The notes beneath the pieces are model-generated. The model made no database searches. It worked only from the letters and a program-made list of their open reading frames with translations, and was not told the origin of the DNA. A program made the position numbers and the translations under genes. 64,000 bases of DNA. Source: Sphingobium sp. TKS. Its GTDB lineage: Bacteria > Pseudomonadota > Alphaproteobacteria > Sphingomonadales > Sphingomonadaceae. Shown in pieces: positions 27,242-47,380 of this stretch; position 1 is the stretch's first letter; every line of letters begins with the position of its first letter. The stretch spans positions 3,165,001 to 3,229,000 of the forward strand of contig NZ_CP005083.1 in assembly GCF_001563265.1 (NCBI RefSeq), read 5' to 3'.

Positions 27242-28027
27242 TCAAGTCTTTCCATAGGTGAAATTCGTTTCGCCGATGCCGCCGATGACGGCCCGGACCT
27301 GATCGCCGGGATTGAGCGCCACCATCGGCCCCAGCGCACCGGCCAGCAGAATATCGCCCGCCTTGAGCGGCTCGCCGCGCCGCGCCAGCGTCTGCGCCAG
27401 CCATGCGGCGGCGTTCAGCGGATTGCCCAGCACCGCCGCGCCCACGCCAAAGGATACGGGTGCGCCGTTGATTTCCATCACCATGCCGCAACTGTAGAGA
27501 TCGAGCCCTTCGAGCCGCTTTCCATCCCGCGCGAGGACGAAGAAAGCCGAGGAGCCATTGTCCGCAACCGTATCGGCAAAGCTGATTTTCCAGTCCGCGA
27601 TGCGGCTGTCGACGATCTCGATGGCGGCATGGACGCTGGCGACGGCCTGCCCGACCATGGCGGGCGTGGTGTCGGGATCGAGCAGGTCCGCGCCAAGGAT
27701 GAAGGCAATTTCCGCCTCGGCCTTGGGCTGCAAGACCCGTGCGGGATCGAGCGTGCCGCCATCGGCGATCCGCATATCATCGAACAGCACACCAAAGTCC
27801 GGCTGGTCGACGCCCAGTTGCTGCTGCACCGCCCTGGCGGTCAGCCCGGCCTTACGGCCGACGATGCGCCGTCCCTGCGCTTCCCAATAACGGGTGTTGA
27901 TCGTCTGGATCGCATAGGCGCCGTCGGCATCCTGCGGCTCCAGCCCGTCGCGCATCGGCGGCACCGCACCGTCGGCATAGGCATTCCGCAAACGGCTGGC
28001 GAGGTCTTCACGATTGGGGGACGGCAT
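27242..28027 (-). CDS. 2-hydroxypenta-2,4-dienoate hydratase family (MhpD/HsaE-like)
   Basis: A 261-residue member of the fumarylacetoacetate-hydrolase-related hydratase family. Motifs include GRKAGLTARAVQQQLGVDQPDFG, the metal-site region QPKAEAEIAFILG, AIEIVDSRI and LNAAAWLAQTLARRGEPLKAGD. Known members hydrate dienoates to 4-hydroxy-2-oxoacids after meta-cleavage. I chose the start at 28027, which overlaps the ETF alpha gene by 20 bp; an upstream extension would run deep into that gene. It is the last intact gene of the leftward operon. Confidence 0.88.
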   Translation of the reverse strand: MPSPNREDLASRLRNAYADGAVPPMRDGLEPQDADGAYAIQTINTRYWEAQGRRIVGRKAGLTARAVQQQLGVDQPDFGVLFDDMRIADGGTLDPARVLQPKAEAEIAFILGADLLDPDTTPAMVGQAVASVHAAIEIVDSRIADWKISFADTVADNGSSAFFVLARDGKRLEGLDLYSCGMVMEINGAPVSFGVGAAVLGNPLNAAAWLAQTLARRGEPLKAGDILLAGALGPMVALNPGDQVRAVIGGIGETNFTYGKT

Positions 28028-28778
28028 CGATTTCGTTCCTCTCTTTCTCTTCGAGCGATTGCAGCACCAGAGGCAACAATATCTTGGCATCAGCCACCAT
28101 CCCGACCTCGGCATAGCGGAAGATCGGGGCGTCAGCGTCGCTGTTGATCGCGATGATCCGGCTTGCCATGCCGATTCCGGCAAGATGTTGCGGCGTCCCC
28201 GAAATGCCGGCGGCCAGATAAAGCCGGGGAGTCACGAAATGGCCGGACTGGCCGATCTGGCGCGACACAGGCGCAAGACCGAGGTCGACCGCGGGCAGGC
28301 TCGCGCCGAGCGCCCCGTCGAGCCGTTGCGCGATTTGGCCGAGGGTGGCGAAGCTTTCGGCGTCCAGTCCCCGCCCCCCACTCACCACCAGACGCGCGCC
28401 CTCCAGCGCGGCGTCGCGGGCGGGCAGTTCGACATGGTCGATCCCCGATATGCCGGGCGCCGGCAGCGTCACCATCCGGTCGCAGGCGGGTGGCTCGTTC
28501 ATGGTGGCGACGGCAATGCCCTGCGTCAGCCGCAGGTCAAACAAGATACGCCCCCCATAGGACGGACGCCTTGCGACCAGCACATCGCCGTCCACGCCGA
28601 TCTCCGTCAGGCGGCCCAGCAATACGGCATCGAGACGCGCCGCCAGAACTCCCGCCAGCGCCTCGCCTTCGGGGGTTGCTGGTAGAATGAACAGGGAGCG
28701 GTCACTTGGCCAGTCCTGTACCGAATCATTATCGCTGCCCACGCCGATCGCCACCAGAATGCACTGCCACCCCTTCAT
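28008..28778 (-). CDS. Electron transfer flavoprotein alpha subunit-like (FixB-like), short
   Basis: A 256-residue protein. The C-terminal FAD-binding domain is clear: ARLVVSGGRGLDAESF, VSRQIGQSGHFVTPRLYLAAGISG, QHLAGIGMASRIIAINSDADAPIF. The N-terminal domain is shorter than in standard ETF alpha (about 310 residues). The start at 28778 forms an ATGA overlap with the ETF beta stop. It is expected to accept electrons from the flavoprotein dehydrogenases encoded alongside and pass them to ETF-quinone oxidoreductase. Confidence 0.87.
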   Translation of the reverse strand: MKGWQCILVAIGVGSDNDSVQDWPSDRSLFILPATPEGEALAGVLAARLDAVLLGRLTEIGVDGDVLVARRPSYGGRILFDLRLTQGIAVATMNEPPACDRMVTLPAPGISGIDHVELPARDAALEGARLVVSGGRGLDAESFATLGQIAQRLDGALGASLPAVDLGLAPVSRQIGQSGHFVTPRLYLAAGISGTPQHLAGIGMASRIIAINSDADAPIFRYAEVGMVADAKILLPLVLQSLEEKERNEIDAVPQS

Positions 28779-29524
28779 AGCCGTTCCCCCATGAGGACGA
28801 TCGCGAGCGCGCGCGCCTGTTCCTGCACCGTGCCTGCGATCATCAGGCAATCGGTGGGCGACCGCGCGCCCGCCAATTCGCCGCTGCCAGCAAGTTGGAA
28901 TCCGGTGGCGCCCACCGCGAAAGCCTCCCGACGTTCGATCTGCGCCTGACGAGCCTGCACGACATTCTTCATCAGCGGCTTGCGCAGCCGGGTGCGCCGG
29001 TCATTGGTGGCGCTGGCGACGATGGGCCCGGTGACCGCTAACCATTCCTCACGCGCACCCACTTCGCGCATCAGCCGCAGGTGCGGAGCCGCCTCCACCA
29101 TCTGCACGCGGCCGAAAAAGGGCAGGCCGAGGATGGCAGCCAGCATCGGGGGCACCAGTCCATCGTCGCAATCGCCAAATTCACGGCCGATCAGAATCAG
29201 GTCCGCGCCACGCGCCGCCACAGCCAGCGCCCGCGCGGTCGCCGCCTGATCCCAGGGCGTCGCCAAAGCCAGCATCGATACGTCCGCGACGTGAAACGCA
29301 GAGACGGCGCGGGCCAGCTTGTCGCATTCAGGACCGCCCGCGACGATCGCGCTCAGTTCGACATCGGGCTGGGCATCGCGGACCCTCAGCGCCATTTCCA
29401 GTGCCGCTGCATCGAAAGGACTGAACAGCAGCCGGTCGCCGGAGCATTCGGGCAGGCCGCCCGGTCCCGGCGCCACCGGCCATTTGGGATCGAGCACGCC
29501 TGCGATCAGCACCATGATCCTCAT
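28775..29524 (-). CDS. Electron transfer flavoprotein beta subunit-like (FixA-like)
   Basis: A 249-residue protein with the adenine-nucleotide-binding ETF beta fold: SPFDAAALEMALRVRD, LSAIVAGGPECDKLARAVSAFHVADVSML, and GADLILIGREFGDCDDGLVPPMLAAILGLPF. It diverges from general fatty-acid ETF beta, notably at the N-terminus (DPKWPVAPGPGG), and looks like a pathway-specific paralogue. It is coupled by 4-bp overlaps to both neighbours, the flavoprotein upstream and ETF alpha downstream. Confidence 0.87.
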   Translation of the reverse strand: MRIMVLIAGVLDPKWPVAPGPGGLPECSGDRLLFSPFDAAALEMALRVRDAQPDVELSAIVAGGPECDKLARAVSAFHVADVSMLALATPWDQAATARALAVAARGADLILIGREFGDCDDGLVPPMLAAILGLPFFGRVQMVEAAPHLRLMREVGAREEWLAVTGPIVASATNDRRTRLRKPLMKNVVQARQAQIERREAFAVGATGFQLAGSGELAGARSPTDCLMIAGTVQEQARALAIVLMGERL

Positions 29525-30870
29525 GACGCCGCCACCGCTTCGCCCGCAATCCGCCCGAACACCACCGCCTTGCCGAGGGCCGAGCCAGTCATATAGGCGG
29601 CGCCATGGAAGCCGCCGGTGACTTCGCCAGCGGCGTACAACCCCTCGATCCAGCCACCGTCGGCGCGCAATACTCGCGCTTGGCTGTCAATGCGCAGGCC
29701 GCAATAGGTGCCGAACACCACGGCGGTCGAAGGATAGGCATAGAACGGCCCCTGATCGATCCTGCGCAACGCGCCATGATGATGCACAAGATGCGACCTC
29801 CCGAAATCGGGATCATGCCCGGCATCGACATGGGCGTTGTAGCGATCCACGGTCGCTGACAGCACATCGGGATCCATCTCGATCTGCGCGGCAAGATCCG
29901 CCATCGTATCACCTGTATAGAAGAGCCCTTCCTCCAGCCGCCGCCCGAAATCCAGGATACGGACGCGGTTGTCGCCGGTATCGAAAATCGCCTGGTCCAT
30001 GATCTGATAGGCGCAATGCCAAGGCTGGGCCATCACCGCATCGCCCAGCAGCTTGTAGGAAATGCTCTCGTCGACGAAGCGCTGCCCGTCCTGGTTGACG
30101 GCGATCGCCCCCTTGTAGACCGCCTGCAGGCTGTGGTCGTTGCTCTCGTCGGTCGGATGCTTGCCGAAGGTGCCCTTCACATAATCCATGTCGCGCAAGT
30201 CCGCGCCCAGCGCCTGCGCCATCTGCAACCCGTCGCCCTGCGATCCCGCTCCGGCGACGAACACGGCCGGGGCATATTGGGGGGCGTAGCGGTCGAGCAA
30301 CAACGGGTTCTTGGCAAAGCCGCCGCTGGCGATGATGACGCCGCGTGCCGCTTCGAGCGTTTCGCCGTTTTCGAGAACGACACCAGTGACTCGCCCGTCC
30401 GGATTCTGGAGCAGCGAGCGCGCAGCCGTGCCCGGGCGATAATCGATATGGCCGGTTTCTTCGGCGGCGGCATGGATTGCGCGGACCATATCGGCGGGAT
30501 CGACGCTGTGCACGCGCGGCACCGACTGGCCCGCCGCCGTCTCAATCACAGGGCTGAAAGCCACCCCAGCGGCCTTCAGCCATTCATAGGTGGTGAGTTG
30601 CGCATCGCAATAAGCCCGGACCAAATCCGCATCGTTCACGTCCTTGCCCACTTCGCGCAGGTCGGTGAACAGCAGATCAGGACTGTCGGCCACGCCTTGA
30701 GCCGCCTGAAGATCGGTCCCGGCAAAGGCGAGGCACCCGCCGCTCATGGCCGAGGAACCGCCGGATTCGGCCAGTTTTTCCAACAGCACGACCTCCAGGC
30801 CATGCTGCGCGGCGGACAGGGCGGCAGCCCAGCCAGCCGCCCCGCCGCCAATGACGATCACATCAGTCAT
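29521..30870 (-). CDS. FAD-dependent oxidoreductase, fumarate reductase/3-ketosteroid dehydrogenase superfamily
   Basis: A 449-residue flavoprotein. The FAD-binding site VIVIGGGAAGWAAALSAAQHG opens the protein, GGSSAMSGGCLAFAG follows, and GLYAAGEVTGGFHGAAYM near the C-terminus closes the FAD domain. The mid-region capping domain carries GTFGKHPTDESNDHS and YNAHVDAGHDPDFGR. Members dehydrogenate or reduce C-C bonds next to carbonyl or carboxyl groups. Coupling to ETF genes suggests that it works as a dehydrogenase delivering electrons to ETF. Substrate unknown. Confidence 0.87.
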   Translation of the reverse strand: MTDVIVIGGGAAGWAAALSAAQHGLEVVLLEKLAESGGSSAMSGGCLAFAGTDLQAAQGVADSPDLLFTDLREVGKDVNDADLVRAYCDAQLTTYEWLKAAGVAFSPVIETAAGQSVPRVHSVDPADMVRAIHAAAEETGHIDYRPGTAARSLLQNPDGRVTGVVLENGETLEAARGVIIASGGFAKNPLLLDRYAPQYAPAVFVAGAGSQGDGLQMAQALGADLRDMDYVKGTFGKHPTDESNDHSLQAVYKGAIAVNQDGQRFVDESISYKLLGDAVMAQPWHCAYQIMDQAIFDTGDNRVRILDFGRRLEEGLFYTGDTMADLAAQIEMDPDVLSATVDRYNAHVDAGHDPDFGRSHLVHHHGALRRIDQGPFYAYPSTAVVFGTYCGLRIDSQARVLRADGGWIEGLYAAGEVTGGFHGAAYMTGSALGKAVVFGRIAGEAVAAS

Positions 30871-31667
30871 GCGGGGTTCAATCCGTAGAAATCGAGAATT
30901 TCGTCGCGTCTGACCGGATCTGGCATTGCGCCGAAATAGCCTGTCCCCGCCGCCTGCCTGCCCGCCCGGCGGGCATCCACCGCCACTTCCGCCGCCCGCA
31001 CCCAGGCGCCCAGGGAATCGATCACCGGAACGCCGTCCACCTCACTGACGCCGTTCATCGCCAGCAGCACATTGAGCGGCGCCTCCCCCGGCACGATCGC
31101 CTCCGCGCCCCTGGCGATCAGGTCACGGGCCGCGCTCCGAAACCGATCGATCAGCGGGCCGGGACTGCCAAAACCCGCAAGCACGTCAGTGAAACGGAAG
31201 CCGACGTCGCAGGCGCCGACGAGCCGGCAGCCGATGCCGTGGCGGCGGACATTGTCGCGATAGAGTTCGGCCAGCTCGGGGATGAACAGCAGCGCCCCGA
31301 ACCGCCGCCCATCGTCCACCGCCGCCCGCGCCGCGCATTCGCCATAGCCCACCACCGGAATGCCGACCAGGGCACGAATTTCCCGCAGCCCCGGTTCCGG
31401 CAGGGTGCTGAGCGCGAAGGCGTCATAGCCCTGCCGTTCCGCCATCAACGCGCCCTGCATGAACTGGATCGCGTGCAGGAACTGGAAGCCGACATGCTTG
31501 ATATCGTCGCCCGGATAGTTGGTCCGATAGGTGCCTTCGCGCATGCCGTGCATGTCGATCACCGTGTCGGGCCGCGCCACCTGCTTGAAATGCGCCTTCA
31601 ACGCGTCGTCATAGGCGGCAAGGTCGCTGAGGACGGTGAAGCTTTGGTGCCAGATGCGGATGTCCAT
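30867..31667 (-). CDS. Asp/Glu racemase-superfamily protein lacking both catalytic cysteines
   Basis: A 266-residue protein of the hydantoin/Asp-Glu racemase fold (QGYDAFALSTLPEPGLREIR; GIPVVGYGECAARAAVDDGRRFG; AEAIVPGEAPLNVLLAMNG). The two cysteines that define racemases and maleate isomerases are replaced: Thr at the first site (ALSTLPEPG instead of a GCFGDPG-like motif), Glu at the second (VPGEAP instead of a GCAG-like motif). Racemisation by the two-base Cys mechanism is therefore unlikely. The ATG at 31667 lies one base after the monooxygenase stop; the flavoprotein follows with an ATGA overlap. Confidence 0.82.
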   Translation of the reverse strand: MDIRIWHQSFTVLSDLAAYDDALKAHFKQVARPDTVIDMHGMREGTYRTNYPGDDIKHVGFQFLHAIQFMQGALMAERQGYDAFALSTLPEPGLREIRALVGIPVVGYGECAARAAVDDGRRFGALLFIPELAELYRDNVRRHGIGCRLVGACDVGFRFTDVLAGFGSPGPLIDRFRSAARDLIARGAEAIVPGEAPLNVLLAMNGVSEVDGVPVIDSLGAWVRAAEVAVDARRAGRQAAGTGYFGAMPDPVRRDEILDFYGLNPA

Positions 31668-31668
31668 C

Positions 31669-32871
31669 TCAGTCGGCCTTCGGTTTTTCGTAGAGCAGCG
31701 GCGGCAGTTCGCCACTGAGCAGATAGCCGCCCAAGGCACCGGCATTGTTATCGGCATCCTGGGTGACATGATTGGCGGCCACGAGCGTGTCCCGCAGATA
31801 GCGCTGGATCGGGTTGGATTTGTACACGCCCCGCGCGCCGGTGCATTTGTAGAGCGTCAGCACCGCTTCCTCGCACTCCCGCCCGATGCGCGCCATGTCG
31901 AGCATATAATGGATGCGATCCTCGGTGGAGACCAGTTCGCGCCGTTCGACGATCTGCGTGCAATGCGCCATCATCTGTTCCATGCGGGCCTGCGAAGCGC
32001 GGACCTTTGCCACGGCATTGGCCAGGCGATCCTTGACATAGGGGCTGAGCCGCGTCGCAGCGCCCGATCCATTGTCGACCCGCACCTGCATCTGGTCGAT
32101 GAAGACGTCGATCGCCCCCTGCGCGAAACCGATGATCACCGAGGACACCGACGAATAGAAGACCATCGCAAAGGGGAAGAGATAATTGGTCGGCCGGTCG
32201 TCCATCTTGTAATCGATCATCGAATGGGCGCGGTGATCGGGGATGAAGGCGTCCTTGATCAGCAGGCTCTTGGATCCGGTGCCGGACAGGCCGAACGTAT
32301 ACCAGTCGTCAATGATCTCATAATCCTCGCGCTTGACCAGCAGGGCGTGGCGGTCGATCGGCACGCCCTTTTCATTGCGTTCCAGCGCGCCGATAAAGGC
32401 CCAGGTGCCATGGTCGCTGCCGCTGGAGGTGGGCCAGCGGCCCTTGAGGCGCCAGCCGCCCTCCACCTTGGTCAATTCGCCCACCGGCGGATAGGAGGAT
32501 GCGATGATGGTCTGGTCATCCTCGCCCCACACATCCTGCGCGGCGCGATCGTCCATGACGCCGAATTCCCAATTGTGCACGCCCAGGATCATCATCGCCC
32601 ATGCGCTGGCGCAGCAGCCGCGGCCAAGCTCCCCCAGCACCCGCATGAAGACGATCGGGTTCATTTCCCATCCGCCATATTTTTTCGGCTGGAGGATGCG
32701 GAAGAAACCGGCTTCGCGGAACATGTCGATCACGTCGTCCGGCACGCGGCGCGCCTCCTCGATCGCGTCGGCGCGGGCGCGCAGGCCGGGAACCATGGCG
32801 GCGGCGCGGGCGACCAGTTCCTTGGCTGTAGGAATTTCACTGGCCTTCTGGCCCAATACGGCAACGGACAT
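31669..32871 (-). CDS. Group D flavin-dependent monooxygenase, HsaA/HpaB-like (acyl-CoA dehydrogenase fold)
   Basis: A 400-residue protein of the acyl-CoA dehydrogenase fold, most like the oxygenase components of two-component phenol hydroxylases: DMFREAGFFRILQPKKYGGWEMNP, CASAWAMMILGVHNWEFG, WPTSSGSDHGTWAFIGA, FGLSGTGSKSLLIKD. Known relatives use reduced flavin and oxygen to ortho-hydroxylate phenols to catechols. AAGGAG precedes the ATG at 32871. The flavin reductase gene is immediately upstream and the extradiol dioxygenase three genes away, supporting a catechol-forming step. Confidence 0.88.
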   Translation of the reverse strand: MSVAVLGQKASEIPTAKELVARAAAMVPGLRARADAIEEARRVPDDVIDMFREAGFFRILQPKKYGGWEMNPIVFMRVLGELGRGCCASAWAMMILGVHNWEFGVMDDRAAQDVWGEDDQTIIASSYPPVGELTKVEGGWRLKGRWPTSSGSDHGTWAFIGALERNEKGVPIDRHALLVKREDYEIIDDWYTFGLSGTGSKSLLIKDAFIPDHRAHSMIDYKMDDRPTNYLFPFAMVFYSSVSSVIIGFAQGAIDVFIDQMQVRVDNGSGAATRLSPYVKDRLANAVAKVRASQARMEQMMAHCTQIVERRELVSTEDRIHYMLDMARIGRECEEAVLTLYKCTGARGVYKSNPIQRYLRDTLVAANHVTQDADNNAGALGGYLLSGELPPLLYEKPKAD

Positions 32872-32894
32872 GGCGGGCTCTCCTTGTATCTTGT

Positions 32895-33437
32895 TCACTG
32901 GATCGGGCGTTCGGGCAGGAATGCCCCGTCGAAATAGATGAGCGGGTCGCCCCCCGGTTCGCGCAGCAGCACGCCCAGCACGTCGCAGATGAAGATATCG
33001 TGCGTGCTGGCTTCGATGCTTTCGCCCACAAGGCAGTCGAAGCTGGCGAGCGCGCTGCCGAGCAGGGGCGCGCCGCTGGTGGCGGTGAGCCAGTTGCCTT
33101 GCGCGAACTTCTCCTCCGGCGGAACGCCCCCGGCAAAACGCTTGGCCAGCGGCAGGGCATCATCACCCAGCACATTGACGCCCAATATGCGCGACTGGCT
33201 GATGATATTATGCGCCCAGGTCGAGCGGTTGATGCAGACCAGCAGCCGCGCCGGTTCGGCCGTGACGGACGCCACCGCCGTCGCCGTCAGCCCGGCCCAC
33301 CCCTCACGCCCCTGGCCCGGCGCGACCGAGGTGATGATCGTGCATGCCCCGGCCAGGCGCCGCATGCCCTGCCGGAACAGGTCGGGCTTGGGCGCCATGG
33401 GCGACGACGGGATGGGATGGGCGAGCGCGGCGGCCAT
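32895..33437 (-). CDS. Flavin reductase component, HsaB/HpaC-like
   Basis: A 180-residue flavin-reductase-domain protein: LFRQGMRRLAGACTIITS, GLTATAVASVTAEPARLLVCIN, RILGVNVLGDD, FAQGNWLTATSGAPLL. It should supply reduced FMN or FAD to the monooxygenase encoded next. Spacing to the hydrolase gene upstream is 5 bp. The N-terminal PIPSSPMAP stretch suggests that translation could also begin at an internal Met about 13 residues in. Confidence 0.9.
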   Translation of the reverse strand: MAAALAHPIPSSPMAPKPDLFRQGMRRLAGACTIITSVAPGQGREGWAGLTATAVASVTAEPARLLVCINRSTWAHNIISQSRILGVNVLGDDALPLAKRFAGGVPPEEKFAQGNWLTATSGAPLLGSALASFDCLVGESIEASTHDIFICDVLGVLLREPGGDPLIYFDGAFLPERPIQ

Positions 33438-33442
33438 GGCTG

Positions 33443-34330
33443 TCAGACCTCTCCGGTGGTCAGATATTTGACCACCACGGCATCGAATTCCTCAGGGCTT
33501 TCATATTGCGGCCAGTGACCGCAATCCTTTTGCATGACGTAGAGCTTGCCTTTCTTGAGGCGCGGCAGGGCGGCCTCGGCGGCGGGGACGTCATGGATCG
33601 GGTTATGCGTGGTCCAGAGCAGCAGGGCTTCCTGCTCGATCTTTTCCAGCTCCATCGCGTCGGGCATCGCTTTGCCGCCGCCGGCCTTGGCCTGGTTCAG
33701 CCGGGCGAAGACCAGAGGCGCGGACTTCTGGAAATCGGGCCGCGAATAGATGGCGAGGCGGGATTCGATCAGCTCATCGGTCAGAAGATCCCAATTGCCT
33801 TCATAGATGAGCCACTGCATCCGTTCCTTGATGCTCTCGAAGCTGGGCGGCTTACCGTAATTCTTCTCGGTCAGCGTGGCGAGGTTGACCAGATCCTGGC
33901 GGCCCTTGTCAGTCATGATCGGAATGCCGCCGGCGGTATTGAGGATCAGGCGCAGGCAGCGTTCGGGATATTTGACCGCGAACAGGCCGGTTACCAGCCC
34001 GCCCAGAGATTCGCCGGAAATATGCGCCTTCTCGATGCCGAGCACGTCCATCAACTCCTTGAGTTGATCGGCATAGATGCTGGCGGGATATTCGATGTCG
34101 GTCTTCTTTTCCGACAGGCCGTGGCCGACGAAATCAAAGGCGATGACGTGGAAATGCTCGCCCAGCGGCACCACATTTTTTGAATAGGCCTCGATATGGC
34201 CGCCGATGCCGTGCATCAGGAACAGCGCTTCGGGTTTGCCCTTGCCCGCTTCGGCAATGCGCACGCGGCCGAAGCTCGGCGTGTCGACATAGCGGATTTC
34301 GGCGCTGAGAAAATCGATCCAGATAGACAT
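33443..34330 (-). CDS. Alpha/beta-hydrolase, probable meta-cleavage-product hydrolase
   Basis: A 295-residue C-C bond hydrolase candidate. It has the oxyanion motif FLMHGIGGHIEAYSKNV, FDFVGHGLSEK, the nucleophile elbow HISGESLGGLVTGL (about 107), Asp in the THNPIHD region, and His in KDCGHWPQYESPEEF (about 272). The GESLGG elbow and GHWPQ end resemble BphD/HsaD/MhpC-type hydrolases. The start at 34330 has GGGAG upstream. Its place directly after the ring-cleavage dioxygenase supports hydrolysis of the ring-cleavage product. Confidence 0.87.
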   Translation of the reverse strand: MSIWIDFLSAEIRYVDTPSFGRVRIAEAGKGKPEALFLMHGIGGHIEAYSKNVVPLGEHFHVIAFDFVGHGLSEKKTDIEYPASIYADQLKELMDVLGIEKAHISGESLGGLVTGLFAVKYPERCLRLILNTAGGIPIMTDKGRQDLVNLATLTEKNYGKPPSFESIKERMQWLIYEGNWDLLTDELIESRLAIYSRPDFQKSAPLVFARLNQAKAGGGKAMPDAMELEKIEQEALLLWTTHNPIHDVPAAEAALPRLKKGKLYVMQKDCGHWPQYESPEEFDAVVVKYLTTGEV

Positions 34331-34359
34331 AATCACTCCCTGATTGGATTGGCCACTAT

Positions 34360-35259: not shown

Positions 35260-35343
35260 CAATCCACTCCTGCATCTCGCTTGCCGCGAGTTGATAGGAC
35301 TGGATTAGCGCGCCCTTCCTATTGTCAAAAACGATATATTTGG

Positions 35344-35354
35344 ATAGTCACTAT
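35344..35354. promoter_or_regulatory. Inverted repeat in the dioxygenase/LysR divergent promoter
   Basis: ATAGT-C-ACTAT is an exact short dyad 29 bp before the LysR start. The 123-bp divergent region is locally AT-rich (GATATATTTGGATAG), unlike the surrounding genes. This is a plausible binding site for the adjacent regulator. Confidence 0.4.
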
Positions 35355-35382
35355 TGCGGTAAACGATTGGCAGGTAAGAGCG

Positions 35383-36285: not shown

Positions 36286-36292
36286 TCCGGCA

Positions 36293-37744
36293 TCAGCCCA
36301 TGGCGGCGTGGGCACCGGCGATCCGGCCGAACACCGCGCCGCTGGTCAGGCCCGCGCCGCCGGGATAGCGATCATAATAAAGGCCGCCGACCAGTTCGCC
36401 CGCCGCGTAGAGCCCGGCGATCGCCTCGCCTTCCTCGCTCTGGACGCGGGCCTGCTCGTCGATCGCCAATCCGCCGAAGGTCAGCGTGATGCCGCATGTG
36501 ACCTCATAAGCGACAAAGGGCGGCTCGCGCAGCGCCCGCGCCCAATTGCTCTTGTTGATCGCAAGACCCCGGGTGCCGCGTCCATCCTTCACCGCAGGGT
36601 TGAAGGGCACGTCCTCATCCACCGCTGCATTGAATTCCGCGATTGTCCGCAGCATGGCGTCGCGGTCTATGCCTTCCAGCTTGGCCGCCAATCCTTCCAG
36701 CGTATCCGACTCGAATCGCGCGGCGCGTGGCACGCGATATTCGTCGGGCAGGATAGGGATCGACTGGGCGTCGAACAATTGCCAGCCCGTGCCGCCGGGC
36801 TGGCGCAGAATCGCCGCGCCCATTTTCGAATAGGTATAGTTGCGGAAGTCAGATCCCTCGTCGAAGAAACGTTCGCCATTGCGGTTCACGACTATACCGA
36901 GCGTGAAATAATTCTTCTGCTGGTTGATCATGGCGATATTGCCGAAGTCCTCGGCTCCCGCATCGAAGAAAACGCTGTGGCAGCCCGACCAGTCGCCATG
37001 CGACCGTGCACCGATGGCGAAGGCGGCCTGTATGACATTGCCGGTGTTGTAGCGCGACCCCCGGACCTTCGCGAGATCCCAGCCCTGCCCCAGAGTGCGC
37101 ACCCGCCATTCCGCATTGGCGTGATAGCCGCCCGCCGCCAGCACGACCGCATCGGCATGCAGCGCCTCGCCGTTGACGATGACGCCCTCCACCCCATGGC
37201 GATTGCCGATCAGATGTTCGACCTTGTGGTCGTAGCGGATCGTGACGCCCAGCGCCTCTGCACGGCGGAACAGCGCGTCCACCAGGCCAACTCCGCCGCC
37301 AGCCGTCTCCACGGTCAGGCCGCCCCAGAAGATGTTCCGCCCGTCGACCTTGAAGGATTGGCGGCCATAAGCGGGCAGGAAACGCACACCCTGATCGCGC
37401 ATCCATGACAGGGTAGGCAAGCTTTGCTGCACCAAAATGTCGATCAGCAGCGGATCGGCGCGATAGCCGCTGAGTTCGCACAGATCGAGGTAGAATTTCT
37501 CCGCGTCATAACGACCGAAGTCGCTGCTGTCCCGCTCCTGCTCGGTCAGGTCGGGAACGAGATGGGCGATATCCTCCACCCCTTCATAGACTGTGCGGAA
37601 GGCTCCCCCCGTAAAGGCGGAGTTGCCGCCCCGCGCCGCTTCGGGCGCCCGCTCCAGTACCGTGACCCGCGCGCCCGCCTCCGCCGCGGCTATCGCTGCA
37701 CACAGCGCCGCATTACCCGCACCCACCACAAGGACATTCCGCAT
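36293..37744 (-). CDS. FAD-dependent oxidoreductase, tricarballylate dehydrogenase (TcuA)-like
   Basis: A 483-residue fumarate-reductase-superfamily flavoprotein. N-terminal FAD motif VLVVGAGNAALCAAIAAAEAGA, then RGGNSAFTGGAFRTVYEGVEDI, which resembles TcuA (GGNS-FTGGA). The C-terminal GLYAAGELVGGLYYDRYPGGAGL completes the FAD site. It converges on the LysR gene with 7 bp between stops and is divergent from the TonB receptor, sharing a promoter region with it. Likely a dehydrogenase on a carboxylate or enoate substrate; the substrate is unknown. Confidence 0.87.
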   Translation of the reverse strand: MRNVLVVGAGNAALCAAIAAAEAGARVTVLERAPEAARGGNSAFTGGAFRTVYEGVEDIAHLVPDLTEQERDSSDFGRYDAEKFYLDLCELSGYRADPLLIDILVQQSLPTLSWMRDQGVRFLPAYGRQSFKVDGRNIFWGGLTVETAGGGVGLVDALFRRAEALGVTIRYDHKVEHLIGNRHGVEGVIVNGEALHADAVVLAAGGYHANAEWRVRTLGQGWDLAKVRGSRYNTGNVIQAAFAIGARSHGDWSGCHSVFFDAGAEDFGNIAMINQQKNYFTLGIVVNRNGERFFDEGSDFRNYTYSKMGAAILRQPGGTGWQLFDAQSIPILPDEYRVPRAARFESDTLEGLAAKLEGIDRDAMLRTIAEFNAAVDEDVPFNPAVKDGRGTRGLAINKSNWARALREPPFVAYEVTCGITLTFGGLAIDEQARVQSEEGEAIAGLYAAGELVGGLYYDRYPGGAGLTSGAVFGRIAGAHAAMG

Positions 37745-37767
37745 TCCATCTCTCCTATCGTCATAGA

Positions 37768-37792: not shown

Positions 37793-37885
37793 CTTCACTC
37801 GATGATGGCGATGTTCTAGCCCTGTGGTCAAGAGGAAAGCCAAGGCGCAGCCAAAACAAGCCGCCGGCCAATGGGAGAGAAGAAG

Positions 37886-40195
37886 ATGACGTTCGCGCGC
37901 CTTGCAACAGCGGTGTCCAGCACCGCGCTTGCCATGTCCTTTTTGTCCGCCGGACCCTCTCTGGCGCAAGAGGCATCACAGCCGGAAAATGGCGCCGACA
38001 TCATCGTCACCGCGACCAAGCGGGCGGAATCGATCAACGATGTTCCCATGTCGATCAGCGCCGCTTCCGGGGACGAGCTGGTCAAGGCGGGCATCCAGAG
38101 CGCCAATGATCTGGGCAAGATCGTGCCGGGCTTCACCTTCACCCAGTCGGCCTACAGCACGCCGGTCTATTCGCTGCGCGGCGTGGGCTTCTACAATTAC
38201 GACATCGGTTCTACGCCGACCGTGACGGTCTATCAGGACGAGGCGCCCCTGCCCTTTTCCGCGATGACGCGCAGCGCCAGTTTCGACCTGGAACGGGTGG
38301 AAGTATTGAAGGGGCCGCAGGGCTTGCTGTTCGGGTCCAATTCGACCGGCGGCGCGGTAAACTATATCGCTGCGCGCCCGACCGACCATCTGACCGCAGG
38401 GGCCGACGCCAGCTATGGCCGCTTCGATAGCTGGGATCTGGGCGGCTTCGTGTCCGGTCCCGTCAGCGACAACGTCGCTGTGCGCATCGCTGCGCGGCAT
38501 GAAGGATCGGGTGAATGGCAGCACAGCGCGACCCGGCCCGGCGACCGCAATGGCAAGCGGGATTTCACCCAGCTTCGCGGCCTGATCGATTATAATGGGG
38601 AGCGTTTGAAGGCAAAGATCGGCTTCAACGCCTTCTGGGACAAGTCCGACGTGCAGGCGGCGCAGCTTATCCAGGTCAATCCGCTGATGCCGCCCTTCGT
38701 CGATCCGCGCCTGGCGAACCAACCGATCGTCACATCCGACGCCCGTGTGGGCGACTGGACGGCGGGCCTCAATCCCCGCCGCGACGACCGCCAGTGGCAG
38801 GTGACGGGCCGGTTCGACTATGACCTCAGCGACAGCGTGACGCTGACCTCGCTCACCTCCTATTCCGACTATAAGCCGCATGACGTGGTCGACCCTGACG
38901 GGACCGCACTGGTGCTGGTCGACACGATCGACAGCGGGCGGATCAAGGCCTTCTTCCAGGAAGTCCGGCTTTCGGGCGAGTTCGGCTCCGGCAGCCGCTG
39001 GATCGTCGGCGCCAACCATGAAAACAACAAGGTGGATGAAGTCCAGCGACTGACTTCGACCGAAGCGTCCGGCTTCGCACCCTTCGCCGTCTTCTTCGGC
39101 CTGCCGGTGCCCGACCAGATCCCGATTTCTTCGGAGCAGCGGTTCAAGACCTATGGCGTCTTCGGCAATGTCGACCTGGCGGTGAGCGATACCATCACGC
39201 TGCATGGCGGGCTTCGTTACACCGACACGTCGGACAAGTTCACCGGCTGCACCGGCAACAGCGCCAATGGCAGCCTGGCGGTCGGCCTGGGTATCATCAC
39301 CCAGGGCGATCCGTCGGCGCTCGGCCCCAACCCGCAATGCACGCAGCTCAATGCCGCTCTGCAACCGACGATCACGCGCACCAAGCTGGCGCAGGACAAT
39401 CTGTCCTGGCGCGGTGGCATCGACTTCAAGCCCAATAAGGACACGCTGCTCTATGCCAGCGTCAGTCGCGGTTACAAGGTCGGCGCCTTCCCGCTGATCC
39501 CGGCATCGTCGGACTCGCAATATACGCCGGTGACGCAGGAAAAGCTGACCGCCTATGAAGCCGGTTTCAAGCTGACGCTGCTGGACCGGAAACTGCAACT
39601 GAACGGTGCGGTATTCCACTATGACTATCGCGACAAGCAGACTCTGTGCAGCGTCATCCTGACGCCCAATATATTCGGCCCGTTGAACCTGCTGGTCAAT
39701 ATTCCCAAGTCGAAGGTGACGGGTGCCGAACTACAGGCGGTGCTGCGTCCGGTGCGGGGGCTGACGCTGAATGCAGGCGTGACTTATGTCCGCAGCCGCA
39801 TCGGGGACTTCGTGAACTTCGATCCCTATGGCGTGGTCGAGAATTTCAAGGGCGAATCCTTCCCCAACACGCCGCGCTGGCAATGGTCGGTGGCCGCCGA
39901 TTACGAATTCCCGGTATCGCAGACGCTCAACGCCTTTATTGGCGGCAATATCAACGGCCGCAGCAAGACCAACGGCGCACTCGGGCAAAATCCGACGCTG
40001 GCGATCGACGGCTATACTCTTATCGACCTGCGCGCCGGAATTGCCAGCGCCAACGACCGCTGGCGCTTCAGCATCTGGGGCCGCAATGTCGGTGATAAAT
40101 ATTATTGGACCAATGCCTACAAGATCGCGGACGTATCCGCCCGCTTCGCCGGTATGCCGGCGACCTACGGCGCGACGCTTTCTGTCCGTTACTGA
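37886..40195 (+). CDS. TonB-dependent outer-membrane receptor
   Basis: A 769-residue protein. A signal peptide (ARLATAVSSTALAMSFLSAGPSLAQ) is followed by a TonB-box-like DIIVTATKR, the plug domain (about 45-160, with RSASFDLERVEVLKGPQGLLFGSNSTGGAVNYI) and a 22-strand barrel ending in Tyr (GATLSVRY). Sphingomonads use such receptors for uptake of hydrophobic or aromatic compounds as well as siderophores. The start at 37886 has GGGAGAG upstream; an ATG at 37871 lacks one. It leads the rightward operon and so probably imports the pathway substrate. Confidence 0.93.
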   Translation: MTFARLATAVSSTALAMSFLSAGPSLAQEASQPENGADIIVTATKRAESINDVPMSISAASGDELVKAGIQSANDLGKIVPGFTFTQSAYSTPVYSLRGVGFYNYDIGSTPTVTVYQDEAPLPFSAMTRSASFDLERVEVLKGPQGLLFGSNSTGGAVNYIAARPTDHLTAGADASYGRFDSWDLGGFVSGPVSDNVAVRIAARHEGSGEWQHSATRPGDRNGKRDFTQLRGLIDYNGERLKAKIGFNAFWDKSDVQAAQLIQVNPLMPPFVDPRLANQPIVTSDARVGDWTAGLNPRRDDRQWQVTGRFDYDLSDSVTLTSLTSYSDYKPHDVVDPDGTALVLVDTIDSGRIKAFFQEVRLSGEFGSGSRWIVGANHENNKVDEVQRLTSTEASGFAPFAVFFGLPVPDQIPISSEQRFKTYGVFGNVDLAVSDTITLHGGLRYTDTSDKFTGCTGNSANGSLAVGLGIITQGDPSALGPNPQCTQLNAALQPTITRTKLAQDNLSWRGGIDFKPNKDTLLYASVSRGYKVGAFPLIPASSDSQYTPVTQEKLTAYEAGFKLTLLDRKLQLNGAVFHYDYRDKQTLCSVILTPNIFGPLNLLVNIPKSKVTGAELQAVLRPVRGLTLNAGVTYVRSRIGDFVNFDPYGVVENFKGESFPNTPRWQWSVAADYEFPVSQTLNAFIGGNINGRSKTNGALGQNPTLAIDGYTLIDLRAGIASANDRWRFSIWGRNVGDKYYWTNAYKIADVSARFAGMPATYGATLSVRY

Positions 40196-40257
40196 TCCTT
40201 TCCGCCGGTCGGTGACCTGTCCCCGCCCGGCCTGTCCCGAAACCCGGAGAATGATGA

Positions 40258-40851
40258 ATGACGTCCGCGCTTCTACTGCTCGATCTGCAAAATGAAATGG
40301 TCGACCCCAAGGGCAAGGTCGGAGCGCATGGGCTGGCCAAGATCGTCGAGGAACGGGGCGTGCTGGCCAATGCCCGCCGCTGCCTCGACGCGGCCCGCAG
40401 CGCCGGCATGGCGGTGGTCCATGTCCGGCTCGGCTTTCGTCCCGACTATGCCGATTGCCTGAGCGTCGCCGCCCGGATCGGCGGGTTGAAATCCAATCGC
40501 GCCGCGATCGTCGGGGAGTTCGGCACCGAATTCCATCCCGATGTCGCGCCAGCCGATGGCGAGCTGGTGATCACCAAACAGTGCGTCAATCCCTTCTTCA
40601 ACACAGGCCTGATGACCTGGCTGATGCAGAAGGGCATCAAGCGGCTCTACATGGGCGGGGTCGCCACCCATCTGGTCGTGGAAAGCACCGCTCGTTTCGC
40701 GGACGATGCCGGTTTCGCGCCCGTCGTGATCGAGGATATCTGCGCCGCCCCAAATCTGGCGCTGCACGATCATTTCATCACGATGATCGCCCCCGCCGTC
40801 GGCACGGTCAGCAACAGCGGCCAGTTCGTCCAGGCGGCGCGGGAGGGCTGA
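40258..40851 (+). CDS. Isochorismatase-fold hydrolase with no catalytic cysteine
   Basis: A 197-residue cysteine-hydrolase-fold protein. The first triad member Asp is in ALLLLDLQNEMVD (about 9), and the Lys is in VITKQCVNPF (about 105). In the third motif the usual TDGCV reads ATHLVVEST, with Val at the Cys position. It is thus more like the isochorismatase branch (EntB/PhzD), which lacks Cys and cleaves vinyl ethers, than amidase members such as nicotinamidase. It follows the TonB gene by about 60 bp. Substrate unknown. Confidence 0.82.
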   Translation: MTSALLLLDLQNEMVDPKGKVGAHGLAKIVEERGVLANARRCLDAARSAGMAVVHVRLGFRPDYADCLSVAARIGGLKSNRAAIVGEFGTEFHPDVAPADGELVITKQCVNPFFNTGLMTWLMQKGIKRLYMGGVATHLVVESTARFADDAGFAPVVIEDICAAPNLALHDHFITMIAPAVGTVSNSGQFVQAAREG

Positions 40852-40855
40852 TCCC

Positions 40856-41704
40856 ATGGCGCTGCGGGAAATCGCGTCGCGCCGGGAAGCCGTGCTGGCA
40901 CCCGGCGCCGCCAACGCCCTCTTTGCGCGGATCATCGAGGATCTGGGCTTCGAATGCGTTTATGTGACCGGCGCCGGGATCGCCAATATGGCATTGGGCG
41001 CGCCCGACATCGGCCTGACGACGCTGGACGACATCGCCGGAACCGTGTCGCGCATAGCCGACGCCGTCAGCCTGCCGCTGATCGTCGACGCCGACACCGG
41101 CTTCGGCAATGCCGTCAACACGTTCCGCACGATGAAGGTGCTGGAGCGGGCGGGCGCATCCGCCATTCAGTTGGAGGACCAGCTTTTCCCCAAGCGCTGC
41201 GGCCATTTCAACGGCAAGGGCGTGATCCCGCTTGGCGAGATGCTGCCGAAGATCCGCGCCGCCGCAGATGCGCGGACACGTGACACGCTGATCATCGCCC
41301 GCACCGATGCGCTGGCGGTAGAGGGCATCGACACCGCACTGGAGCGCGCGGAAGCCTTTGTCGAGGCAGGCGCGGACATCACCTTCATCGAGGCGCCACG
41401 CGATGCGGATCAGATGCGTCGCATCGCCGCCTTGTCCGTGCCGCAGATCGCCAACATAGTCCATGGCGGCAAGACCCCGCCCTTGCCCCAATCCGAGCTG
41501 GCCGACATGGGCTTCGGCCTTGTCCTCTATGCCAATGCGGCCTTGCAGGCAGCGGTGCGGGCCAGCGCGACCGTGCTTGGTTCGCTCAAGGCCACCGGCT
41601 CGCTCGATGCCGTTCATGACCTGCTCGCCTCTTTCGAGGAACGGCAAGCAGCGGTGGCGAAACATCATTGGGACGCGCTCGAACAGCGGTTCAAACCGGA
41701 GTAA
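40856..41704 (+). CDS. Isocitrate lyase/PEP mutase-superfamily C-C lyase
   Basis: A 282-residue (beta/alpha)8 protein. The magnesium site sequence LPLIVDADTGFGNAVN (about 75-90) and the gating-loop motif QLFPKRCGHFNGKGVI (about 113-128, KRCGH) place it among 2-methylisocitrate/dimethylmalate lyases or oxaloacetate decarboxylases. The last FEERQAAVAKHHWDALEQRF helix fits. It starts 4 bp after the isochorismatase-like gene and ends 4 bp before the flavoprotein gene. It may perform the carbon-carbon cleavage that the missing aldolase would normally do; that is inference. Confidence 0.86.
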   Translation: MALREIASRREAVLAPGAANALFARIIEDLGFECVYVTGAGIANMALGAPDIGLTTLDDIAGTVSRIADAVSLPLIVDADTGFGNAVNTFRTMKVLERAGASAIQLEDQLFPKRCGHFNGKGVIPLGEMLPKIRAAADARTRDTLIIARTDALAVEGIDTALERAEAFVEAGADITFIEAPRDADQMRRIAALSVPQIANIVHGGKTPPLPQSELADMGFGLVLYANAALQAAVRASATVLGSLKATGSLDAVHDLLASFEERQAAVAKHHWDALEQRFKPE

Positions 41705-41708
41705 AATC

Positions 41709-43124
41709 ATGCACCTGATCGTTGTGGGCAGCGGCATTGCGGGCCTGAGCGCCGCGCTGACCGCAGCCGAAGCCGGAGCGCGGGTTACGCTCATCGAACG
41801 CGCTGCGGAGGGCGAGCATGGCGGCAACACCCGCTATACCGAAGCCTATCTGCGCATGAAGTCGATGGATGAGGTGGCCGACGACTTTATCGACCATTTC
41901 ATGGCCAATGCCGGGGGCTATACCGACCCCAGCATCGAACAGGAAATGGTGCGCGACCATGCCGACTGGTCACCCATTGCGCGCAGTCAGTCGATGGTCG
42001 ACCCGGACCTGCTTTCCGCCTTTGCCGACCATGCGGGGACGACCCTGCGCTGGCTGGAGCGGGCCGGGCTGCGCTTCGATTTCCTGCCCACCGCGTTCAT
42101 CACCACCACGACCACGCGCTTGCTGCCGGTCGGCGGCGGGCTGGCGATGGTCGAGACGCTGACGGAGGCATGCAAGGCGAAGGGCGTCGACTTCCGCTTC
42201 GAAACAACCGCCCGGTCGCTGCTGGTACAGGACGGGCGCGTCACCGGGCTGGCAACCAGCCGCGGCGCAATCGAGAGCGACGCCGTGATCCTTGCCTGCG
42301 GAGGGTTCGAGGGCAATCCGGAAATGCTGGCCCGCTACGTCGGCGCGCAGGCGATCAACCTGCGCCCCGTGGCGCGGGGCGGCCATTATAACAAAGGCGA
42401 AGGCATCCGCATGGCGCTCGACATCGGCGCCGCGCCCAATGGCGATTTCGGCAGCTATCATGCCGAACCGATCGATCCCCGCTCGGGCCTCGCGGAACCG
42501 GCGATCTTCACCTTTCCCTATGGCATACTGGTCAACAAGGACGGCCTGCGTTTCACCGACGAGGCACCCGGCACGGTCGATGCCCATTATGAAAATGTCA
42601 CCCGGCGCATCTTCCAGCAGCGCGACGGCATCGCCTGGCTGATCGTCGATGCGCAGATCGACGATGTCCCCAACTGGCAGAAGGGCAGCCGCACCGATCA
42701 GCCGCCGGTCAGGGCCGACAGCATAGAGGCGTTGGCGGACGCGATCGGCGTGCCCCGCGATGTGTTGGCCGACACCATCGGCCGCTATAATGCAGCCTGC
42801 GGGGCAGGCGAATTCAAGCCGCTGGAGCGTGACGGTCTTGCCACCCAAGGCCTCACGCCGCCCAAATCCAACTGGGCGCGGCCGATCGACCGGGCGCCCT
42901 ATCTCGCCTGGCCGGTGATCTCGGCCAATGTCTTCACCTTCGGTGGCTTGAAGGTCGATCGCCACGCCCGGGTGCTGGATCAGGACGGCCGCGCCATCGA
43001 TGGCCTTTATGCTGCCGGGGAGACGATGGGCCTCTATTATCGCACCTATACCGGGTCGACCTCCGTGCTGCGCGGCGCGGTGTTCGGGCGGCAGGCTGCA
43101 CTTCACGCGAGCGCAGGCGCATGA
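41709..43124 (+). CDS. FAD-dependent oxidoreductase, TcuA-like (second copy)
   Basis: A 471-residue flavoprotein, a paralogue of the one at 36293: LIVVGSGIAGLSAALTAAEAGA, EHGGNTRYTEAYLRM, ACGGFEGNPEMLARY, and a C-terminal GLYAAGETMGLYYRTYTGSTSVLRGAVFG. Start at ATG 41709, in-frame sequence upstream being inside the lyase gene in another frame. Its stop overlaps the SDR start by 4 bp. It is the third fumarate-reductase-type flavoprotein in the locus. Confidence 0.87.
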   Translation: MHLIVVGSGIAGLSAALTAAEAGARVTLIERAAEGEHGGNTRYTEAYLRMKSMDEVADDFIDHFMANAGGYTDPSIEQEMVRDHADWSPIARSQSMVDPDLLSAFADHAGTTLRWLERAGLRFDFLPTAFITTTTTRLLPVGGGLAMVETLTEACKAKGVDFRFETTARSLLVQDGRVTGLATSRGAIESDAVILACGGFEGNPEMLARYVGAQAINLRPVARGGHYNKGEGIRMALDIGAAPNGDFGSYHAEPIDPRSGLAEPAIFTFPYGILVNKDGLRFTDEAPGTVDAHYENVTRRIFQQRDGIAWLIVDAQIDDVPNWQKGSRTDQPPVRADSIEALADAIGVPRDVLADTIGRYNAACGAGEFKPLERDGLATQGLTPPKSNWARPIDRAPYLAWPVISANVFTFGGLKVDRHARVLDQDGRAIDGLYAAGETMGLYYRTYTGSTSVLRGAVFGRQAALHASAGA

Positions 43125-43873
43125 AGACGCGGTTTGCGCTGGACGATATGGCCGTGCTGGTCACTGGAGCGGGCGGCATGATCGGCGGCGCGATCGCGCA
43201 GCGTATGGCCGAAGGCGGCGCCCGGCTGGCACTTGCCGACCGGGAAGCGCCATCATCGGCGGGTGACAGCCGCAGCTATGCGCTCGACCTCTCCGACGCG
43301 GCGCAGGTGCGCGAACTGGTCGATGCGGTGGTCCACGATTTCGGCCGGATCGACTGCCTCGTCACTGCGGCGGGCATCACGTCGCTGGGTTCATTTGAGG
43401 ACATCAGCCTGGAGGAATGGGACCGGGTGCATGGCATCAACCTGCGCGGCGTGTTCCTCGCCAATCAGGCGGTGATCGCGCCGATGAAGGCGGCTGGCTT
43501 CGGCCGGATCGTCAATATCGGGTCAGTGCTTGCCAAAAATGGCGGCAACCCGCGCCCCTGGATCGACCCGCAAGAACAGACGCGCGCAGGCAACGCCGCC
43601 TATGGCGCGGCCAAGGCGGGCGTGCATGCGCTCACCCTCTACCTCGCCAGGGAGCTGGCATCGCACGGCATCACCGTCAACGCCGTCGCGCCCGGCCCGA
43701 TCGCCAGCCCGATGACGAACAGCTTCCCTACCACGCTGGTACAGCAAATCCCGGCAGGCCGCATGGGCCGGTCCGATGAGGTGGCGGGCATGGTCGCCTG
43801 GCTCTGCACGCGAGAGAGCGCCTTCGTCACCGGCGAGATCGTCGACGTGAACGGCGGCCTCTGGATGGATTGA
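43121..43873 (+). CDS. Short-chain dehydrogenase/reductase
   Basis: A 250-residue classical SDR. Cofactor motif VTGAGGMIGGAIAQRMAEGG (about 14-33), Asp at the end of beta-2 (LADRE) indicating NAD(H) preference, NIGSVLAKNGG in place of the NISS stretch, catalytic AAYGAAKAGVHALT (Tyr about 161, Lys 165), and GEIVDVNGGLWMD at the C-terminus. Final gene of the rightward operon; oxidises or reduces a hydroxyl or carbonyl in the pathway. Confidence 0.92.
   Translation: MKTRFALDDMAVLVTGAGGMIGGAIAQRMAEGGARLALADREAPSSAGDSRSYALDLSDAAQVRELVDAVVHDFGRIDCLVTAAGITSLGSFEDISLEEWDRVHGINLRGVFLANQAVIAPMKAAGFGRIVNIGSVLAKNGGNPRPWIDPQEQTRAGNAAYGAAKAGVHALTLYLARELASHGITVNAVAPGPIASPMTNSFPTTLVQQIPAGRMGRSDEVAGMVAWLCTRESAFVTGEIVDVNGGLWMD

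Positions 43874-46252: not shown

Positions 46253-47380
<1,128 letters not shown>

Follow-up and report, generated by a model that had tools for sequence, protein, structure and literature searches.

Two Gene Modules in a Single Locus

The 64,000 bp stretch of the Sphingobium sp. TKS genome (6.23 Mb) analysed here, referred to as the window (contig NZ_CP005083.1, positions 3,165,001–3,229,000), contains a set of about 15 genes, among them genes for the hydroxylation and meta-cleavage of a phenol and genes for flavoprotein dehydrogenases and an electron transfer flavoprotein (ETF). Gene classes were assigned by Pfam and NCBIfam profile scans of the window open reading frames (ORFs), with the NCBIfam cut-offs. 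Nine genes, separated by small gaps or overlapping, constitute a minus-strand run in the order extD-hsaD-flvR-hsaA-racA-fccA-etfB-etfA-hyd. Beyond extD are found a LysR-type regulator gene on the plus strand, tcuA1 on the minus strand, and then the plus-strand run tonB-isoC-pepM-tcuA2-sdr. The regulator was assigned by Pfam HTH_1 and LysR_substrate matches in a plus-strand ORF (34387–36285) that overlaps extD, the LysR gene proper occupying only about 35383–36285. The TonB-dependent receptor gene covers positions 37871–40195 (Pfam, NCBIfam).

The genes were sorted into two modules. Module R1 comprises the phenol hydroxylation and meta-cleavage genes (HsaA, flavin reductase, ExtD, HsaD, and Hyd). 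Module R2 comprises the three FAD_binding_2 flavoproteins TcuA1, TcuA2, and FccA together with EtfAB, a short-chain dehydrogenase (SDR), RacA, and IsoC. The initial annotation, made from the sequence alone, had listed an HsaA-type oxygenase, a flavin reductase, an extradiol dioxygenase, an HsaD/BphD-type hydrolase, a hydratase, a flavoprotein, and ETF alpha and beta, as well as a LysR regulator, two TcuA-like flavoproteins, a TonB receptor, an isochorismatase fold, a PEP-mutase/ICL fold, and an SDR; all were recovered by Pfam and NCBIfam. The list stood nearly as described, except that it overlooked the ninth minus-strand gene, racA (30867–31667), and placed tcuA1 in the divergent TonB-side set, whereas this gene lies on the minus strand (36293–37744).

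Conservation and Separability of the Modules

Genome contigs were searched with HsaA, which yielded 68 loci. The proteins of the window were mapped onto each of these; a detailed gene table was established by tblastn, at 30% identity or more, for 30 chosen stretches. R1 and R2 were found together on 14 of the 30, corresponding to the window itself, ten further sphingomonad loci, one of Hyphomonas adhaerens, and two of Pseudomonas. Sphingobium chungbukense DJ77 and Pseudomonas linyingensis are among the hosts. Because the gene set recurs in clustered form in 13 other loci, it is a conserved pathway. The gene order sought in these 13 loci was constant among the sphingomonads and shuffled in Hyphomonas and Pseudomonas. 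The segment racA-fccA-etfB-etfA lies downstream of hsaA, on its strand, in Hyphomonas and in the 11 sphingomonad loci, the window among them. This conservation upholds the earlier view that flavoprotein dehydrogenases and an ETF are combined in one catabolic locus with enzymes of hydroxylation, meta-cleavage, and hydration; which module acts first is a prediction. Some genes were cut off by stretch or contig ends, namely sdr in loci L001 and L008, pepM, tcuA2, and sdr in L007, and isoC, pepM, tcuA2, and sdr in L092; the SDR of L002 (31%) is a different one. In the nearest named relative, the Sphingobium sp. 15-1 locus, hsaA was 99.5–100%, racA 95%, and etfA 68% identical. The ETF subunits (window 28008–29524) were the fastest-changing proteins of the locus, with 46–75% identity to other sphingomonads, compared to at least 73% for fccA and hsaA.

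The locus is rare. With the TKS genome counted, a RacA match was present in 4 of 249 family genomes (E ≤ 1e-20) and in 2 of 398 phylum genomes (E ≤ 1e-30); among Burkholderiales, 9 of 399 genomes had one (E ≤ 1e-40). The R2 module is spread over alpha-, beta-, and gammaproteobacteria.

The two modules are separable. Two Variovorax plasmid loci carry R2 without R1, with the full R2 set, Bug proteins, and a PrpD-family gene. Loci from eight of the nine Burkholderiales racA genomes (all but G802) were covered, and tcuA2 and Bug proteins were each found near racA in seven of the eight. R2 in Variovorax, or RacA with TcuA2 in Burkholderiales, thus stands beside Bug/TTT-type carboxylate-binding proteins without ring-cleavage genes. 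An HsaA orthologue was absent from the nine Burkholderiales genomes and the two Variovorax records (plasmids only), where matches did not exceed 36% identity, and 4 of these 11 records had no HsaA match at E ≤ 1e-40. An acyl-CoA ligase gene and an enoyl-CoA hydratase gene adjoin the one Burkholderiales racA locus tested for them. FccA-like relatives (48–50%) occur in two of the nine genomes and more distant racA paralogues (36–45%) in five; one of the two paralogue loci fetched (L116) has a tcuA2 relative. Conversely, six loci have R1-type genes with R2 absent on the stretch (a Diaphorobacter plasmid, three Burkholderia/Paraburkholderia, and two Azospirillum), and Paraburkholderia oxyphila gave no RacA match in its whole genome. 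In Pseudomonas, where both modules are present, a LysR gene lies beside tcuA2-sdr-isoC and an XylR-type regulator gene beside extD-hsaD-hsaA.

The Ring-Opening Module R1

The hsaA gene (31669–32898) encodes the oxygenase component of an HsaA-type flavin-dependent phenol hydroxylase (NF045629; PDB 2rfq, 1.3e-66) and flvR (32895–33437) a flavin reductase (Pfam Flavin_Reduct, 3.9e-33). The product of extD (34360–35262; PDB 23al, 3.3e-88) is a class I extradiol dioxygenase, with the Pfam BphC_D1 and Glyoxalase (VOC) domains and the six motifs GIGHILP, RHHSLA, LNHLML, ELGHHPND, SFYMRTP, and GMELGHG. We take the roles of the residues in these motifs to be those known from BphC. The usual metal-ligand and catalytic residues were all present, in agreement with the complete extradiol active site announced by the initial annotation. 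ExtD scored 260.6 bits against the BphC equivalog TIGR03213, below the cut-off of 366.45, and it belongs to the VOC class instead of the MhpB type (PRK13370, class III). The hsaD gene (33443–34336) encodes a C-C hydrolase with a GESLG elbow. At the end of the run, hyd (27242–28027) encodes a 2-keto-4-pentenoate hydratase-type protein of the FAA_hydrolase fold (PRK11342, 298.9 bits, cut-off 350), starting at the ATG at 28027, preceded by GAGAGGAACG. The NCBIfam cut-offs of the Hsa equivalogs were all missed: 314.4 bits for a cut-off of 450 (HsaA), 60 for 230 (HsaB), 199.3 for 450 (HsaC), and 138.6 for 400 (HsaD, NF045632).

Seven of the 14 genomes bearing the locus yielded no HsaD orthologue, their best match being 39%. 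Three of the seven (G033, which is Altererythrobacter sp. H2, G118, and G228) are rated 99–100% complete and the four others are unrated. The corresponding sphingomonad loci (L003–L007, L011, and L092) keep R1 and R2 genes. The hyd gene, carried by 7 of the 14 loci with both modules, is present in three of these HsaD-negative loci (L003, L004, and L092), and in L092 it is followed by genes for a 4-hydroxy-2-oxovalerate aldolase (578 bits, cut-off 286) and an acetaldehyde dehydrogenase. As hyd, and in L092 the aldolase and dehydrogenase genes, are kept without HsaD, another hydrolase probably takes its place in the HsaD-negative loci carrying hyd. Three genes located elsewhere in the TKS genome are 88–91% identical to the L092 aldolase.

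Two side observations can be added. In L004 a FAH-type hydrolase gene stands beside hyd, its product being near 2,4-didehydro-3-deoxy-L-rhamnonate hydrolase (424 bits, cut-off 500). Two of the TKS aldolase genes (C1:958522 and C1:2530923) show identical scores and identities (91%), as if a segment had been duplicated.

The neighbourhoods of more distant relatives give an indication of the phenol. In both Azospirillum loci (L015 and L016) the HsaA relatives adjoin MhpB-type 3-carboxyethylcatechol dioxygenases, which points to a carboxyalkyl-phenol. On Rhodococcus plasmids, relatives of the VOC dioxygenase and of the hydrolase occur in simple hydroxylase/dioxygenase/hydrolase sets, and the annotation shows no flavoprotein, ETF, or racemase gene of R2 in their vicinity.

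The Flavoproteins and Their Proposed Electron Acceptor

The fccA gene (29521–30870, minus strand) encodes a soluble flavocytochrome-c-type FAD dehydrogenase that passes the fumarate reductase/flavocytochrome c model TIGR01813 (304.4 bits, cut-off 285.45). Of the TcuA-like FAD proteins, TcuA1 passes NF006130 (547 bits, cut-off 369) and fails TIGR02485 (287.6, cut-off 372.55); TcuA2 (41709–43124, plus strand) stays below both (365.1 and 214.2). There is no TcuB-like gene among the 16 locus genes, and a true TcuAB system was accordingly rejected; none is listed in the Paracoccus and Bradyrhizobium comparison loci either. The sdr gene (43121–43873, plus strand) encodes a FabG-like enzyme (Pfam adh_short_C2, 3e-52).

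In the HMMER alignments, FccA and TcuA1 have a tyrosine at both positions corresponding to Arg402 and Arg544 of the flavocytochrome c3 fumarate reductases, so that FccA, which passes TIGR01813, lacks the catalytic Arg402 as well as Arg544. TcuA2 has a tyrosine at the second site. Arg544 of fumarate reductase binds the substrate carboxylate. The top structure match of FccA, 1jrz, also has a tyrosine at the first position and is the R402Y mutant. In a joint MAFFT alignment, both tyrosines of FccA, TcuA1, and TcuA2 fell on those of a 3-ketosteroid dehydrogenase (KSTD)-like protein encoded in the window (58806–60533). The three proteins carry tyrosines at the Tyr318 and Tyr487 positions of 3-ketosteroid dehydrogenase, the first site of TcuA2 depending on gap placement; the numbering is that of PMC5348764, and its mapping onto the KSTD-like protein is our own reading. 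In KstD1, C2 is made more acidic by Tyr487 and Gly491, and the proton is taken up by Tyr119 and Tyr318 (PMC5348764). The proton donor proposed for fumarate reductase is Arg401/402, a residue that urocanate reductase retains (PMC7921117).

A strict count of the first-site motif over the best matches gave 15 of 17 for FccA, 14 of 17 for TcuA1, and 15 of 17 for TcuA2. Six of the seven misses were paralogues on stretches devoid of the orthologue (L009, L010, L007, and L092); in the seventh, TcuA1 of L008, the tyrosine is kept and a neighbouring residue is changed. The KSTD equivalog PRK12844 (cut-off 789) was missed by all three proteins, with 218 bits for FccA, 119.4 for TcuA1, and 150 for TcuA2. 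The double tyrosine is what a KSTD-type ring-ketone dehydrogenase would show, and it makes an upstream dehydrogenation or aromatisation, as suggested by the initial annotation, plausible; the separability of the modules leaves a competing role for R2 in acid degradation, weighed below.

The two ETF genes lie next to fccA on the minus strand: etfB (28775–29524; Pfam ETF, 5.6e-15) and etfA (28008–28778, starting near 28778), which encodes a short divergent alpha subunit (Pfam ETF_alpha, 3.3e-26). The fccA, etfA, and etfB genes were found together on the same 16 of the 30 stretches and none of them on the other 14, showing that the ETF goes with FccA. On a Bradyrhizobium plasmid, a TcuA1-like protein (54%) is encoded beside a distantly related ETF pair (identities of 29% and 23%), which suggests that TcuA1 too may use an ETF.

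RacA, IsoC, and PepM

RacA has the Asp/Glu or allantoin racemase fold and is devoid of the two racemase cysteines. Out of 1180 homologues in the protein database (E ≤ 1e-30), residues were checked in the 120 listed, and all had Thr88 and Glu195 instead; two RacA proteins of the reduced Burkholderiales modules have Ser and Glu at these positions. The structure matches were racemase-type relatives, OpaE, an atypical fungal member, ranking fifth among those listed. The situation is similar for IsoC (40258–40851, plus strand; Pfam, 1.6e-35). Here the isochorismatase fold previously proposed is present, and the nucleophile expected of a cysteine hydrolase is not: Asp9 and Lys107 are kept, and the cysteine is replaced by Val140. 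Out of 672 homologues (E ≤ 1e-15), the 119 listed were checked, with Asp in 118 (one gap), Lys in 119, and Cys in none; the last position is Val in 113, Ala in 4, and a gap in 2, and hence not a cysteine in any of the 117 readable ones.

In the nicotinate pathway, the maleamate and maleate steps (NicF and NicE) associate an isochorismatase fold with an Asp/Glu-racemase fold. A similar role for IsoC and RacA was ruled out, as both lack the cysteines that those enzymes use. EntB isochorismatase, which hydrolyses the vinyl ether of isochorismate, has no catalytic cysteine, and by analogy a vinyl-ether role is possible for IsoC, its agreement with EntB/PhzD-type isochorismatases being limited to the fold and the missing cysteine. 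Public sources label the homologues of RacA and IsoC as allantoin racemase, biuret amidohydrolase, or cysteine hydrolase. These labels imply residues that are missing, so that relabelling matters for annotation.

The pepM gene (40856–41704, plus strand) encodes a lyase of the ICL/PEP-mutase superfamily with the KRCGH motif of the methylisocitrate lyase PrpB. PepM outscores every other PrpB-like protein of the TKS genome, yet stays under the TIGR02317 cut-off (275.3 bits in the genome search and 274.7 in the window, for 354.4). In P. linyingensis, prpC lies 3.7 kb from tcuA1; a link to the methylcitrate cycle was considered and judged to be likely a matter of chance.

Outside the locus, GH16 glycosidase-like and BNR-repeat proteins are encoded just downstream of sdr (window 44474–47380); the P. 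linyingensis locus has a BNR protein as well, plus DUF1302, DUF1329, and MMPL genes. A Mutator-family transposase gene (51786–53009) separates the locus from a second catabolic-looking set (53344–63841), with two acyl-CoA dehydrogenase-type proteins, a thiamine pyrophosphate (TPP) enzyme, the KSTD-like FAD protein (PRK12844, 695.7 bits, cut-off 789), and, on the opposite strand, a TonB receptor.

A Model for the Pathway

We propose that the two modules form one aerobic catabolic pathway in which R2, using the ETF, dehydrogenates a carboxylated hydroaromatic ketone to a phenol whose ring is then opened by R1. We hold this reading to be credible, a little short of an even chance. Gene content, conservation, separability, and residue changes are seen in the sequences; the order from R2 to R1, every reaction, and the substrate are predictions. 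In this model the compound taken up, hydroaromatic and carboxylated, would be acted on first by R2. The SDR would produce a ketone, either on the ring or on a chain. The FAD proteins of the Tyr/Tyr type would remove hydrogen alpha,beta to the carbonyl, and FccA at least would hand its electrons to the dedicated ETF. With their folds kept and their cysteines lost, RacA and IsoC might contribute proton transfer, isomerisation, or acid-catalysed hydrolysis until a substituted phenol is reached. HsaA with the flavin reductase would then hydroxylate the phenol, ExtD would open the catechol, HsaD (or another hydrolase where it is missing) would split the ring-fission product, and Hyd would hydrate the dienoate. 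The pathway would be completed by an aldolase whose gene lies outside the locus, and PepM may cleave a released branched acid.

Three features lead us to place R2 before R1. The TonB gene of the sphingomonads belongs to the R2-side run and the Bug proteins of Variovorax stand beside R2, which puts R2 next to uptake. The R2 genes are retained, as far as the stretches reach, in the seven genomes without a detectable HsaD orthologue, and this fits an action ahead of ring opening. The flavoproteins, finally, resemble ketone dehydrogenases. Several observations weigh against the proposal. The sequence does not fix the module order, and the tyrosine pattern may be common to enzymes of ketone and of acid substrates: the first-site motif of TcuA1 recurs in a Bradyrhizobium protein that bears a TcuA annotation. 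The first site of TcuA2 is Val in one HMMER alignment and Tyr in the other, depending on gap placement. PepM keeps its lyase motif and has no clear place in an aromatisation. Using tblastn on the 30 stretches, the flavin reductase was not found in the Pseudomonas loci, pepM was not found in the Pseudomonas or Variovorax stretches, and hyd was not found in 7 of the 14 stretches with both modules. The Burkholderiales loci with RacA, or RacA and TcuA2, that lack an HsaA orthologue and lie next to Bug genes and, in the one tested, to acyl-CoA ligase and enoyl-CoA hydratase genes, fit acid degradation as well. In one of these genomes (G764) an FccA-like protein (48%) is encoded about 10 kb from racA, just beyond the tabulated stretch.

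The occurrence of R2, or of RacA-TcuA2, beside Bug proteins without ring-cleavage genes keeps a reverse order standing, which we nevertheless regard as somewhat unlikely. HsaD would release a polycarboxylic acid, branched or cyclic, derived from the phenol side chain, and R2 and PepM would degrade it without CoA, through dehydrogenation (TcuA1, TcuA2, and FccA/ETF), isomerisation (RacA), hydration or hydrolysis (IsoC), oxidation (SDR), and a lyase step (PepM). The nine Burkholderiales RacA genomes with HsaA matches of at most 36%, tcuA2 and Bug each in seven of eight loci, the Variovorax plasmids with full R2, Bug, and PrpD-family genes, and the KRCGH motif in PepM, the top PrpB-like match of the genome, would all be expected if R2 acted on an acid. 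The retention of R2 in the seven genomes without HsaD would not, nor would the location of TonB in the R2-side run, nor the replacement by tyrosine, in the three flavoproteins, of both fumarate-reductase arginines, including the carboxylate-binding one. It is improbable that the locus merely juxtaposes two independent pathways with little shared chemistry, R1 being a meta-pathway for hydroxyphenylalkanoates and R2 a pathway of carboxylate dehydrogenation. Either module does occur alone, and the regulators are separate in Pseudomonas (LysR on the R2 side and XylR-type on the R1 side), but the modules are found together in 14 loci of three lineages despite a shuffled gene order, and racA-fccA-etfB-etfA follow hsaA on one strand in the 11 sphingomonad loci and Hyphomonas. 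A steroid or estrogen degradation cluster of the HsaABCD type with accessory flavoproteins is very improbable and is disfavoured as far as tested. The HsaA, HsaC, and HsaD models do match, Sphingobium estronivorans is one of the locus hosts, and the KSTD-like gene lies 15 kb off in the window; the four Hsa cut-offs are, however, missed by wide margins. The S. estronivorans study places the estrogen (edc) cluster on contig NZ_LFCT01000011.1 (PMC7793797), and the copy of the present locus is on NZ_LFCT01000007.1.

Relation to Known Pathways

Searches of open-licence full texts aimed at the gene set or its hosts yielded no description of it, in line with the earlier statement that no named pathway with the full set was known. 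Peripheral flavin chemistry feeding meta-cleavage is of a known kind; what sets the locus apart is the way its genes are combined, the proposed coupling to an ETF, and the absence of the cysteines from RacA and IsoC. The steroid 9,10-seco pathway (KstD, HsaABCD, and HsaEFG) has the order proposed here, from flavin dehydrogenation to a phenol through two-component hydroxylation, meta-cleavage, C-C hydrolysis, and hydration; the locus differs by its scores under the four Hsa cut-offs and by its short TcuA/Fcc-type flavoproteins, dedicated ETF, RacA, IsoC, and PepM. The 3-(hydroxyphenyl)propionate meta-pathway (MhpBCDEF) shares the hydrolase, hydratase, aldolase, and dehydrogenase logic, the latter two genes standing beside hyd in L092, and its MhpB-type dioxygenases neighbour HsaA relatives in Azospirillum. 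In contrast, the locus has a VOC dioxygenase and not MhpB, a two-component hydroxylase and not MhpA, and the additional R2 module. In cyclohexanecarboxylate aromatisation, the 4-oxocyclohexanecarboxylate desaturases ChcC1 and ChcC2 are also FAD_binding_2 proteins with weak model matches to those of the locus, and ring-ketone dehydrogenation would be the analogous step; the scores are far under the cut-offs (165.2 versus 900 bits for FccA with ChcC2), and the locus has an ETF and a product that would go to meta-cleavage. TcuA1 resembles the TcuA protein of tricarballylate utilisation by its NF006130 score and differs by failing TIGR02485, and an ETF is present in place of a TcuB-like gene.

We tentatively extend the proposal, with distinct reservation, to a CoA-free, ETF-coupled aromatisation of a natural hydroaromatic acid by three short Tyr/Tyr FAD dehydrogenases, an SDR, and the cysteine-less RacA and IsoC, linked to meta-cleavage of the phenol; as part of this joint reading, RacA and IsoC would represent new isomerase or hydrolase chemistries. 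If R2 does precede R1, the locus would encode a soluble flavoprotein/ETF route from alicyclic rings to phenols without CoA activation. It provides a defined gene set for testing and, in RacA and IsoC, two families with altered catalytic residues.

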